Source: a virus
Virus record (IMG/VR): IMGVR_UViG_3300040751_001453
Location: 1-21,498 of that record
Reading direction: 5' to 3' (one strand)
Length of the DNA: 21,498 nt
In this document: piece by piece, positions 11,951 to 15,554 of the stretch
How positions within the stretch are numbered: position 1 is the stretch's first letter
How the letters are laid out: each line of letters starts with the position of its first letter
The notes under the pieces: generated by a model
What the model was told of the DNA's origin: nothing
Database searches by the model: none
Seen by the model: the letters and a program-made list of their open reading frames with translations, nothing else
Program-made: the position numbers and the translations under genes

Positions 11951-12253
11951 CTAATTTAAGTCTTTTAGATCCGTTGCACGTTTTGCCATCTGCTTGACAT
12001 CACTGCCTTTAGATTTTTTGTTTACTCGTTTTTCTTTTTGAAAAATAATTTCTTCACCGTTGTAATTATCTACAATATTAGCAATGACCGGATCAGCATT
12101 ATATGCAGCATCAAATGTTTCGTATGAATATTCTTGTGCATCCATGTTAGACATTAATTTATCTAATTGCTCGTATGATACTTTCTTTACACCTCGTTCG
12201 TCAAGGTGCTTCAACAGTTGCACTAATGCATCTGTACTCGAATCTTCAACTAC
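11951..12253 (-). CDS. Downstream frame, probable -1 frameshift extension of the 12250-13236 protein
   Basis: The frame is open across the A9 run and encodes VVEDSSTDALVQLLKHLDER and onward to a basic end (KRVNKKSKGSDVKQMAKRAT, DLKDLN). The only start in the usual place is GTG at 12223, with no Shine-Dalgarno. The frame continues upstream into the A run, where a -1 slip by ribosomes leaving the 12250-13236 gene would enter it directly. The fused product would be 428 residues, adding 100. The alternatives are a separate 90-residue protein from GTG 12223 or a single-base homopolymer error that split one gene. Coding character is good (varied codon use, no internal stops). Function unknown. Confidence 0.55.
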   Translation of the reverse strand, partial: VVEDSSTDALVQLLKHLDERGVKKVSYEQLDKLMSNMDAQEYSYETFDAAYNADPVIANIVDNYNGEEIIFQKEKRVNKKSKGSDVKQMAKRATDLKDLN

Positions 12254-13236
12254 TTTTTTTTTGAGAGGATTGCACCTAATCGACGTGACTGCTCAAGCAT
12301 TGCTCGTTTTTTGTTCATACGTGACTCACGTTTTGCACGAGCAGCTTCTTCGTCGCCGCCTGCTGCTGCGCCATCTGCTGCAAAGTCATCCATATCTATG
12401 TCGCCGTCTACTGGCATTTCCATATCTGCTTCTGCATCATCCATTGGCATTGCTGCATCATCGTCAGCACCCATCATGTCTGCTGGCTCAGCTTCACCTG
12501 TAATTTGTCCCACACCTTGTGTTAAAGAAACTCTTGTTGTTTCCATTGTAGCGTACATTGCTTCAAGTGCAGGCTTCACAGTGTTTGTAAATTGGTCTGC
12601 TTGTTCAGCACCCATTTCGTCACGTATAGCATCTGCTAATTCTAACATTGATTCTGACTGCATTTCTGCGGTGTCTTCCATCCAACCAGTTAAACGGTCT
12701 ACCATGTCTTTTGCTGCCATTACTAGTTCAGCGTGATCTTCTGCACCTTCTAATAAAGTAGTAAAGTAATTTCCGATGATATCTTTACCTTCGTCTACTT
12801 TCTTCTTCTTAGCGTCTTTAGCTGCTTTCTTCATTGGCTCTTCTTTATCTCCGTCTTTGTCTAGGTCTAAAAAGTCTGGCTTACCTTCGTCAACTTTTTT
12901 ATCATCAGTCTTTGCTTTTCCTGTGCCTCCACAGTCTGGGCAACTCTTAGGACAAGTTTCGTCGCAATCGTCAACTGCTTCAGCTACGTGAGCACGCTCG
13001 TTAATTTCTGCATTAAGAACATCTAACATTAGTTTGGATTTTTGATATGTTTCGTTCTGAACAGCATTGTAACTTTCGTTAGTTTCAAATTGACTAAGTT
13101 TAGTTCTAATTCTATTTCTAACGTCTTGTAATTGTTCAAGCGTAAATGACTCAAGGTTTATTTTCTTGCCGTACTTTTTAGCAAGTGATTCGTTAAGCAT
13201 CGAAGCTGTTATCTTTTTGAATTCTGTTATTCTCAT
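12250..13236 (-). CDS. Acidic virion-type protein with Cys cluster and EF-hand-like loop
   Basis: The 328-residue protein begins MRITEFKKITASMLNES, a possible capsid-targeting leader with L-N-E/S cleavage. It is helical to about 85, then has a Cys cluster C91-x3-C95-x3-C99-x2-C102 followed by GGTGK (DnaJ-like zinc knuckle), an EF-hand-like loop DLDKDGDKEEP (124-134) and a Lys-rich stretch. A second helical part follows (160-245), then a very acidic Met/Ala/Asp segment (250-295), and a basic end RAKRESRMNKKRAMLEQ. Scaffold- or core-like charge alternation suggests a head or internal protein. A GATAAATA late element (13265-13272) and AGGA precede the start. The stop falls one codon after an A9 run (see slip site). 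Confidence 0.7.
   Translation of the reverse strand: MRITEFKKITASMLNESLAKKYGKKINLESFTLEQLQDVRNRIRTKLSQFETNESYNAVQNETYQKSKLMLDVLNAEINERAHVAEAVDDCDETCPKSCPDCGGTGKAKTDDKKVDEGKPDFLDLDKDGDKEEPMKKAAKDAKKKKVDEGKDIIGNYFTTLLEGAEDHAELVMAAKDMVDRLTGWMEDTAEMQSESMLELADAIRDEMGAEQADQFTNTVKPALEAMYATMETTRVSLTQGVGQITGEAEPADMMGADDDAAMPMDDAEADMEMPVDGDIDMDDFAADGAAAGGDEEAARAKRESRMNKKRAMLEQSRRLGAILSKKK
12253..12259 (-). other. A AAA AAG slippery heptamer at gene end
   Basis: The last sense codons of the 12250-13236 gene read TCA AAA AAA AAG then TAG. A AAA AAG in this register is the most efficient known -1 slip site in E. coli. Eighteen bases further on CAGATGCA and TGCAACTG can form an 8-bp stem with one mismatch and a TTAG loop; that spacing is longer than is usual for a stimulator. 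Confidence 0.5.
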
Positions 13237-14116: not shown

Positions 14117-14424
14117 AACTTTCTCGCTTTTGTTTTTGGTTTTAGTTTTCTTCTAGAACTTTTGTTCAATGTTGACAATCGTTGACTTGTAGGATTAGAC
14201 CTCATTGTTGTTGCTCTTTTTACTTTAATTATATTACTTTTTCTTTGTTTAGTTGTTTTAAGATTTCGACTAGCTTTTACATTTTTAGGTTTAGTACAAG
14301 TTGCTGGACTACTAACTACTTGTCCTCTGCGTTGACCTGCACTACACCTGTATTTTCGGACAGCCTTAGTTCCTGACTTGCTCCAAATTGCAACTGCTGA
14401 TTCGTCAAAATCTCTTAGTCTCAT
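14113..14424 (-). CDS. Basic virion protein with Cys-containing KYRC domain (paralogue)
   Basis: Nearly the whole 103-residue protein is one basic domain: SGTKAVRKYRCSAGQRRGQV, a second Cys in PATCTKPKN, then a Lys/Arg-rich tail (KTTKQRKSNIIKVKRATT, SNPTSQRLSTLNK). The same order of motifs forms the C-terminus of the neighbouring 377-residue protein, so the two are paralogous domains. Two Cys could form a disulfide or bind metal. High charge suggests DNA binding inside the head, or a capsid or tail-tube lumen protein. Its start overlaps the upstream stop by 4 bases (ATGA). The N-terminus (MRLRDFDESA) resembles a short leader. Confidence 0.7.
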   Translation of the reverse strand: MRLRDFDESAVAIWSKSGTKAVRKYRCSAGQRRGQVVSSPATCTKPKNVKASRNLKTTKQRKSNIIKVKRATTMRSNPTSQRLSTLNKSSRRKLKPKTKARKL

Positions 14425-15554
14425 TTATTTAATGCCTGTATTCTTCTACTAGCAGGGTTTATCTTTTTAGTACGTTTAGACTTACGTGCCATACGTGATC
14501 CTAAACGTGCTTTTGTCTTTTTAAGTGTTGCTCGTTTTTTAACATCAGGTGCTTTAAAACACTGCGTTACATCTGATACTATTCTACCCTTGCGACTTCC
14601 GCTGCTGCAACGATACTTGCGAACTACTTTTGTTCCAGAACGTGCCCATGCCATAGCTTCATTAGTTACACTTTCTTGTTGTGCTGCTAATGCTACTAAG
14701 TCTTTGTATAGAGTTGATCCATTTGCAGTTGCTTTTCCTTGCCAAACTGTTTTTAATCTATCCCATGAATTAATTATTTTAAGTGCTTTATCATAATCTT
14801 TGTCGTTATACGCTTGTCGAACCATGTTACCAACTTCTTGAGTTGGTACACCTGGATTAGTTGTAGTAGGTGCTGGAGTATTATTAGATGCCGGTGTGTT
14901 ATTAGGTGCCGAGTCAATTGACCTTCCTATAGCATCAGTATCGATAGCAGGAGCAGGAGCTTCTGGTTGTTCTATCGGAACACCTTGTCCTGTGTAAAGA
15001 GGACCTTCTGGATTGGTTGGCGGTTGTCCTTGCATCGGCATACGTGGCATTAAAATACGAGGATTGCTTGATGCTCTGTTACCGTAGTCATCAATCTGTA
15101 CTACTTCGTGTGTTGCTTTAAGTCTATTGTAATTGTCGCCGTTGTAAGCAAACACATAATCATTCAGTTGTCCAACTATTAACCGTGTTACTTTTCTTGG
15201 GTTATCTGGAGTGCCTTCCATCGTTGCTTCGATTACACTAATTATCTTAGCAATAGTATTTTTGCCTGGATCGCCGTCAACAGTTAAGTCGTGGTCTTTT
15301 TGGAATGCCATAACAGCTCGTGCTGTTTTCTTTCCAAACCACCCATCGGGCTTTCCTGGTTTATAATCTAAGTATTGTAGAACTCGTTGTAACAATTGTA
15401 GTTCACCTGTGTTGATACTACCTCGTTTGGTTCTACGCCATTGACTACTAGAAGTGTCAATGTTTTTTAGCAATGGCATAAAGTTCTTTGGTGTGAACGG
15501 AATATCGCCTGCTTCGGATAATGATTCGGTTATGAATAAAGATCTAAGTAACAT
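14421..15554 (-). CDS. Peptidoglycan-binding virion protein with basic KYRC C-terminus
   Basis: The 377-residue protein has three parts. Residues 50-108 form a PG_binding_1 domain (LQLLQRVLQYLDY, KPDGWFGKKTARAVMAFQKD, VDGDPGKNT). A Pro/Ala/Thr-rich linker spans about 165-235 (PEAPAPAIDTD, NNTPAPTTTNPGVP). Residues 300-377 are the basic domain shared with the next gene (SGTKVVRKYRCSSG, C at TQCFKAP, KRTKKINPASRRIQALNK). The peptidoglycan-binding part would hold the cell wall during entry, but no lytic catalytic domain is visible. The N-terminus (MLLRSLFITESLSEAGD) has two gp21-type sites. There is no clear Shine-Dalgarno; a CATAAATA late element sits 5 bases before the ATG, so the message could be leaderless. 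Confidence 0.75.
   Translation of the reverse strand: MLLRSLFITESLSEAGDIPFTPKNFMPLLKNIDTSSSQWRRTKRGSINTGELQLLQRVLQYLDYKPGKPDGWFGKKTARAVMAFQKDHDLTVDGDPGKNTIAKIISVIEATMEGTPDNPRKVTRLIVGQLNDYVFAYNGDNYNRLKATHEVVQIDDYGNRASSNPRILMPRMPMQGQPPTNPEGPLYTGQGVPIEQPEAPAPAIDTDAIGRSIDSAPNNTPASNNTPAPTTTNPGVPTQEVGNMVRQAYNDKDYDKALKIINSWDRLKTVWQGKATANGSTLYKDLVALAAQQESVTNEAMAWARSGTKVVRKYRCSSGSRKGRIVSDVTQCFKAPDVKKRATLKKTKARLGSRMARKSKRTKKINPASRRIQALNK

Follow-up and report, generated by a model that had tools for sequence, protein, structure and literature searches.

A conserved candidate −1 frameshift site links a head-core-like protein to a winged-helix-like domain in a family of uncultured phages

Comparison with related phages gives good support to a conserved programmed −1 frameshift at the 3′ end of ORF1, a head-core-like gene in the window (the whole 21,498-base stretch of viral DNA analysed here), and from this comparison we infer slippage in cells, its mechanism and its rate. 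The frameshift would join ORF1 to a second, winged-helix-like domain, ORF2, and we consider it probable that the fusion is carried into the prohead, where ORF2 is cut free. The comparison supports the frame relation, the conservation of the slip site, the alternation of the fusion with a separate ORF2 gene and the conservation of a motif at the junction. The carriers appear to be uncultured marine T4-like giant phages.

Reading frames at the 3′ end of ORF1

The region around the proposed slip site contains the following features.

12250–13236, minus strand: ORF1, 0-frame product of 328 aa ending in SKKK, a putative prohead-core-like carrier (reading frame; PHROG match)
12254–12262, minus strand: A9 run, the sole one in the window (run count)
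12253–12259, minus strand: slippery heptamer A_AAA_AAG in the 0-frame register (sequence; conserved in relatives)
12250–12252, minus strand: 0-frame stop TAG, immediately 3′ of the heptamer (sequence)
11951–12253, minus strand: ORF2, −1-frame extension of 100 codons plus stop (one homologous family)
12221–12223, minus strand: −1-frame GTG that lacks an SD; a start here would lose the junction motif and part of helix 1
12214–12235, minus strand: stem named in the original prediction (fold test)

In frame 0, the 3′ end of ORF1 reads ATC CTC TCA AAA AAA AAG TAG. The −1 frame, entered at G 12253, the last base of the heptamer, starts with VVEDSSTDALVQLLKH, reads VVEDSSTDAL and runs for 100 codons to the stop at 11951, giving a predicted frameshift product of 328 + 100 = 428 aa. 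The original prediction had named the heptamer, the adjoining 0-frame stop, the 100-codon frame and the length of the product, all of which were confirmed in the sequence. It had also described an SD-less GTG as the only separate start for ORF2. The GTG at 12223 does lack an SD by eye, and initiation there would leave out the 10 N-terminal residues of the extension, but it is not the only possible start, because the −1 frame also contains a TTG and later ATGs. The sequence TCAAAAAAAAAR occurs once in the 21,498 bases, against 0.07 occurrences expected from shuffles; it contains the only A9 of the window, a run that by itself would be expected about twice by chance.

Collection of related loci

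Viral contigs were scanned for relatives five times with ORF1 or a relative of it as the query, each scan keeping the best 80 of at least 500 matches, and once with ORF2 as the query, which gave one match. Because the scans kept the closest relatives of each query, the family is sampled unevenly. They yielded 364 sequences, including the window, of which five were dropped because no match reached the ORF1 3′ end, leaving 359 where this end was readable. These loci comprised 147 unique 600-nt contexts, 145 of them with an ORF2 match (the other two are L122 and L256), and gave 112 clusters at 90% nucleotide identity, each with one representative. One locus, L356, is truncated by the contig end and holds 53 aa of ORF2.

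The nearest relative among the matches listed, L002/L082, shares 78% identity with the window in ORF1 and 86% in ORF2, and its TCAAAAAAAAAG and frame relation are identical to those of the window. Among the first loci (62 distinct sequences among the 81 read), the −1 products and the products of separate ORF2 genes formed one BLASTP-connected family. Fused extensions that were not cut by a contig end measured 98–134 aa, with a median of 109.

Alternation between fused and separate ORF2

A 0-frame A_AAA_AAR through which the −1 frame stays open into the homologous domain was found in 91 of the 112 clusters (fused clusters), or in 92 (slip clusters) when L309, set aside as an intermediate, is included; in the window and in 92 of the 112 clusters, the heptamer has the form X_XXY_YYZ, in the 0-frame register and within the overlap of the two frames. 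The remaining 21 clusters encode ORF2 as a separate gene with its own ATG, and the slip site is lost in 20 of them. The original prediction had proposed looking in related phages for a conserved run and frame relation, and both proved to be kept in the fused clusters and lost where ORF2 is separate. In the 20 separate clusters, which have no usable slip site, the ORF2 ATG lies 2–16 nt past the first base of the ORF1 stop, and these clusters therefore serve as natural controls. ORF2 is in the −1 frame relative to ORF1 in 91 of 91 fused clusters, as compared with 10, 5 and 5 of the 20 separate clusters in frames 0, +1 and −1, respectively. Likewise, 11 of 92 slip clusters versus 20 of 20 without the slip site have an ATG that is in frame with ORF2 and lies upstream of, or close to, the start of the domain, and an ATG or GTG with an SD was present in 2 of 92 (L309 and L269) versus 15 of 20 separate clusters, scored there as an SD-like motif. 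At the level of sequence comparison, this pattern strongly supports productive frameshifting.

The same counts bear on the alternative that ORF1 and ORF2 are two independent genes, with ORF2 translated from an internal GTG or TTG, or by re-initiation, and no frameshift. Pairs of genes with good ribosome-binding sites, which the original prediction had set against its own model, do occur in the family: they are the 20 separate clusters (15 with the SD-like motif), all of them without a slip site, and L309. The separate ATG-started gene in 20 of 112 clusters and the GTG at 12223 in the window thus speak for independent genes. Among the fused clusters, however, ATG, GTG and TTG are all absent from the first 20 ORF2 codons in 50 of 91, an ATG or GTG with an SD is found in L269 only, the −1 relation is invariant and the possible start in the window comes after the conserved xE. 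We consider independent genes very improbable, and internal initiation of ORF2 was rejected on these comparative counts.

The ORF1 stop of the fused clusters is TAA in 63, TAG in 20 and TGA in 8; as all three stop codons are used after the site, no single stop reassignment explains the extension, and this possibility was ruled out. Runs of nine As are generally error-prone in sequencing, and a homopolymer error in sequencing or assembly could in principle split one gene into two frames. However, the same frame relation recurs in 91 clusters from many samples, and it stays constant while the run length varies by substitution (TCA to TCT, AAG to AAA). Sequencing error is therefore ruled out by the retention of slip site and −1 relation across these clusters, its probability being negligible.

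Two clusters illustrate how the arrangements differ. The end of ORF1 in L309 reads TCA AAA AAG AAA TAG and is accompanied by an SD and an ATG for ORF2, so that L309 looks like an intermediate between the architectures. In L079, the SKKK end is encoded as TCA AAG AAG AAG and ORF2 has its own ATG; this cluster is a natural control. As a side observation, the intermediate form L309 / L015 combines A_AAA_AAG (A6) with an ORF2, in the −1 frame, that has an SD and an ATG. In a quick tree of ORF1, from which the direction of change is not inferable and in which L309 was scored as separate, well-supported branches forced at least four changes of architecture, with five in all.

Mechanism of slippage

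The run in the 92 slip clusters is A9 in 74, A10 in 10, A8 in 4 and A6 in 4 (including L309), and a clade of three clusters (L253, L281 and L283) has GGA AAA AAG only, that is, A6. At the A-site Lys codon, 73 of the 91 fused clusters have AAG and 18 have AAA, whereas elsewhere in the fused-form ORF1s AAG accounts for 85 of 246 Lys codons after AAA (p = 4 × 10−14). The preference for AAG and the clade with only A6 favour ribosomal slippage at A_AAA_AAG over slippage of RNA polymerase.

In the latter alternative, slippage on A9 would produce mRNAs with an extra A and thereby the −1 product, leaving the downstream biology unchanged. Bacterial RNA polymerase is reported to slip efficiently in vivo on a run of nine As (PMC5009743), and we therefore kept this explanation; it is also consistent with the A9 or A10 of 84 of the 92 slip clusters and with the depletion of such runs elsewhere in the 112 loci (7 A9/T9 versus 68.7 expected from a mononucleotide shuffle). 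It accommodates poorly, however, the three fused clusters with A6 and the four with A8, as well as the choice of AAG over AAA for the third Lys (73 versus 18), although AAA would extend the run. We regard polymerase slippage as fairly unlikely and ribosomal slippage as the favoured mechanism.

The stem at 12235–12214 predicted downstream of the site does exist (63-nt fold, z −1.84; 13 of 200 shuffles fold equally well), and is at most a candidate stimulator. The mean z of fused loci is −1.04 at 0–50 nt, −1.34 at 50–100 nt and about 0 at 100–200 nt, and that of separate-gene loci is −1.43 after the ORF1 stop. No conserved RNA stimulator specific to the fused loci was found, folding being equally above chance in the separate loci.

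A protease-like motif at the junction

Two peptides of the predicted fusion resemble sites of the T4 prohead protease.

12245–12253, minus strand: V-V-E, proposed prohead-protease site just past the slip, fusion residues 329–331 (motif conservation)
13189–13236, minus strand: N-terminal segment MRITEFKKITASMLNE, a CTS-like peptide that ends in L-N-E (motif conservation; T4 motif)

T4 gp21 cleaves after L/I-X-E, and the T4 internal proteins carry targeting propeptides of 10–19 residues (PMC9026906). Of the 91 fused clusters, 90 encode a [VILM]xE motif in the −1 frame no more than 12 aa from the slip, with V, I or L as the first residue in all 90; the same DNA yields two such motifs in frame 0 and one in the +1 frame, and they occur in 3.1% of 12-aa windows elsewhere in ORF2. 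By type, the junction motif is V.E in 57 clusters, unlike the L/I-X-E of T4 gp21, and [LI].E in 34. In 62 of the 91 fused clusters, its first residue overlaps the 0-frame stop codon and is hence necessarily aliphatic, so only the Glu is informative there; this Glu is not forced, and the frequency of Glu elsewhere is 4.8%. The motif lies off the stop-overlapping codon in 28 clusters, and, among the fused forms that were aligned, 4 to 13 residues separate it from the fold. The separate forms of ORF2 carry [VILM]xE in their first 12 aa in 21 of 21 cases (for example, MKVFELYE and MRVSDIILE). By its sequence, the junction [VIL]xE is like the T4 gp21 sites and might be cleaved in the same way. At the other end of the fusion, LNE[S/T/N] occurs within residues 9–24 of ORF1 in 109 of 112 clusters, and this N-terminus looks like a T4-type capsid-targeting peptide.

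Alternatively, the frameshift could be real and the extension an ordinary structural or assembly variant, as T7 10B or lambda gpGT, that is neither cleaved nor released. Frameshifted C-terminal extensions are indeed known in phage structural proteins (PMC5009743). Against this reading, 90 of the 91 junctions have a [VIL]xE, whose spacing from the fold varies, and a similar site stands at the N-terminus of all 21 separate forms; we judge this reading somewhat unlikely.

Predicted properties of ORF1 and ORF2

ORF1 matches PHROG 14154, annotated as a virion structural protein of the head/packaging family (E 2.9e-14), and a PDB profile search with it gave no match. In some relatives only, about residues 89–110 form a zinc-knuckle-like CxxxCPxxCPxCGGTG insert, followed by a DxDKDGDKxEPMKK segment; a stretch near this segment recurs in another protein of a 335-kb contig described below.

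12041–12241, minus strand: predicted winged-helix-like domain, extension residues 5–71 (AlphaFold2; structural match)

The AlphaFold2 model of ORF2 consists of helix-strand-helix-helix-helix-hairpin, with moderate confidence (mean pLDDT 72.4); a second fold used an alignment (A2) of the ORF2s of 99 of the 112 representatives, that of the window among them. The best VIA match of the model is weak (Z 6.8, rmsd 2.9 over 68 aa), although many of the listed structural neighbours are winged-helix domains. Foldseek gave a best E of 0.048 against the PDB; against viral models, its matches were all unnamed proteins, with E values no better than 4.4e-4 (first model) and 3.7e-3 (second model). Family scans against PHROGs and Pfam returned scattered weak matches, with no family hit by more than 3 of 35 members, and PDB profile searches with ORF2 gave nothing convincing. 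As a VIA Z of 6.8 or less is middling, the winged-helix-like fold is only a lead towards DNA binding by ORF2.

Phage type and distribution

One relative, L366, a 335-kb contig from a Neomarinimicrobiota MAG, carries ORF1 and an ORF2 with TCAAAAAAAAAG TCA TAG. Its gene order agrees by eye with that of the window (NifU-like, exonuclease, spike, nrdA, nrdB), and it also encodes a T4-type gp20 portal, a gp21-family protease (PF03420, E 8e-26; PHROG 207, E 9.8e-58) and gp23. Its T4-type head genes and its length of 335 kb make this relative a T4-like jumbo phage, and very probably the same holds for the window phage, the window itself being a fragment. Between the protease and gp23, L366 has a separate gp22-sized gene, so its ORF1 is not its gp22.

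No protease was found among the 16 window proteins scanned. Searches for gp20, gp21 and gp23 in eight IMG/VR contigs, the longest of 117 kb, gave no match, because these contigs are fragments. A gp21 search of six contigs gave no match and was repeated with cyanophage P-TIM40 as a positive control, which matched all three head families (gp20, gp21 and gp23). Neither ORF1 nor ORF2 was found in P-TIM40 itself. Among cultured phages, ORF1 had a weak match in Sinorhizobium phage Phosso, in which ORF2 was not found, and ORF2 had no match.

The two MAG matches may represent phage contigs binned with those genomes. The T4-type portal, protease and gp23 families match two contigs of the MAG that contains L366 (G007 contigs C57 and C77) with equal scores, which suggests that the bin contains two almost identical phage contigs; only one of them yielded an ORF1 match.

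Proposed model and comparison with known systems

We propose that a −1 slip at A_AAA_AAG, at the end of ORF1, presumably in a minority of molecules, produces the ORF1-ORF2 fusion. The ORF1 part, with its CTS-like N-terminus, would take the fusion into the prohead, and a gp21-type prohead protease would cut at the [VIL]xE past the junction and free ORF2 inside the head, the slip rate setting its copy number. As a separate gene, ORF2 begins with a short peptide of its own that ends in [IL]xE. In a broader reading, to which we give about even chances, the fusion is a tailed-phage counterpart of Gag-Pol: a DNA-binding-like cargo joined at a set ratio to a prohead-core carrier, freed by the protease and packaged or injected with the DNA, its mode of delivery having switched several times.

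As in retroviral Gag-Pol and the totivirus capsid-polymerase, the −1 shift lies near the end of the capsid-side gene and would yield a minority fusion, and in Gag-Pol fusion to capsid components aids packaging ahead of cleavage (PMC5009743). Unlike Gag-Pol, the system described here belongs to a dsDNA tailed phage, involves no polymerase, would rely on a separate gp21 protease gene and has a putative cleavage step; we claim no relationship. With T4 IPI-III and Alt, which are prohead core proteins, ORF1 shares a short N-terminal peptide ending in [IL]xE, and engineered T4 IPIII fusions bring foreign proteins into the head (PMC9026906). Unlike the T4 internal proteins, it is joined by frameshift to a natural C-terminal domain, and V is often the first residue of the motif. 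A literature search covering titles and the opening lines of abstracts found none that describes frameshifting in core or internal head proteins of the T4 type.

Frameshift extension of structural proteins has precedents in tailed phages. In lambda gpG/gpGT, a −1 fusion lengthens the product of a structural gene, and in T3/T7 gene 10 and Lactobacillus phage A2 a −1 shift adds a C-terminal domain to some head proteins, as would happen here (PMC5009743). The T3/T7 and A2 cases extend the major coat protein, and the text on them in PMC5009743 mentions no cleavage. The identical A_AAA_AAG heptamer is used in Escherichia coli dnaX (PMC5009743), where the shift shortens the product instead of lengthening it; the family described here also differs from dnaX in that no conserved stimulator was found.

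Tail assembly chaperone genes adjoin the tape measure and tail tube genes. The original prediction had likened the fusion to these chaperones, but a PHROGs scan of 16 window proteins revealed no tape measure or tail tube; unlike lambda gpG/gpGT, ORF1 has no tail-assembly context, matches a head/packaging family and is followed by a conserved protease-like motif, which points to the head. A tail assembly chaperone was thus rejected on gene context. According to work cited in the PRFect paper, tail chaperones are produced without a frameshift in some T4-like phages.

If the model is correct, tailed DNA phages independently reached the Gag-Pol solution, in which a frameshift doses the cargo and a capsid protease releases it. 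The comparison adds a marine phage family, from many samples, to natural frameshifting, with fused and separate forms as natural controls; it opens the function of an unknown head protein to testing and suggests a possible way to dose cargo into phage heads. Gene callers that rely on start codons would overlook the second domain, or shorten it, in many such genomes.

Other genes of the block

Downstream of ORF2, the window encodes NifU-like and exonuclease genes. The NifU-like gene adjoins ORF2 (11897–11598, minus strand; PF01106, E 2.2e-25), and by eye the 335-kb relative has a similar one at the same place. Short peptides ending in [ILV]xE (MKINELIEA, MRYSDFKLVE and MLLRSLFITE) begin several genes of the block, and the cargo packaged by the phage may include many internal proteins with a CTS.

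18038–17655, 19226–18039, 15554–14421 and 13236–12250, minus strand: genes with such [ILV]xE starts

The gene at 14424–14113 and the 3′ part of that at 15554–14421 are tandem paralogous basic modules (VRKYRCSxGxRxGxxVS...), one of which is fused behind a region with PHROG endolysin matches.
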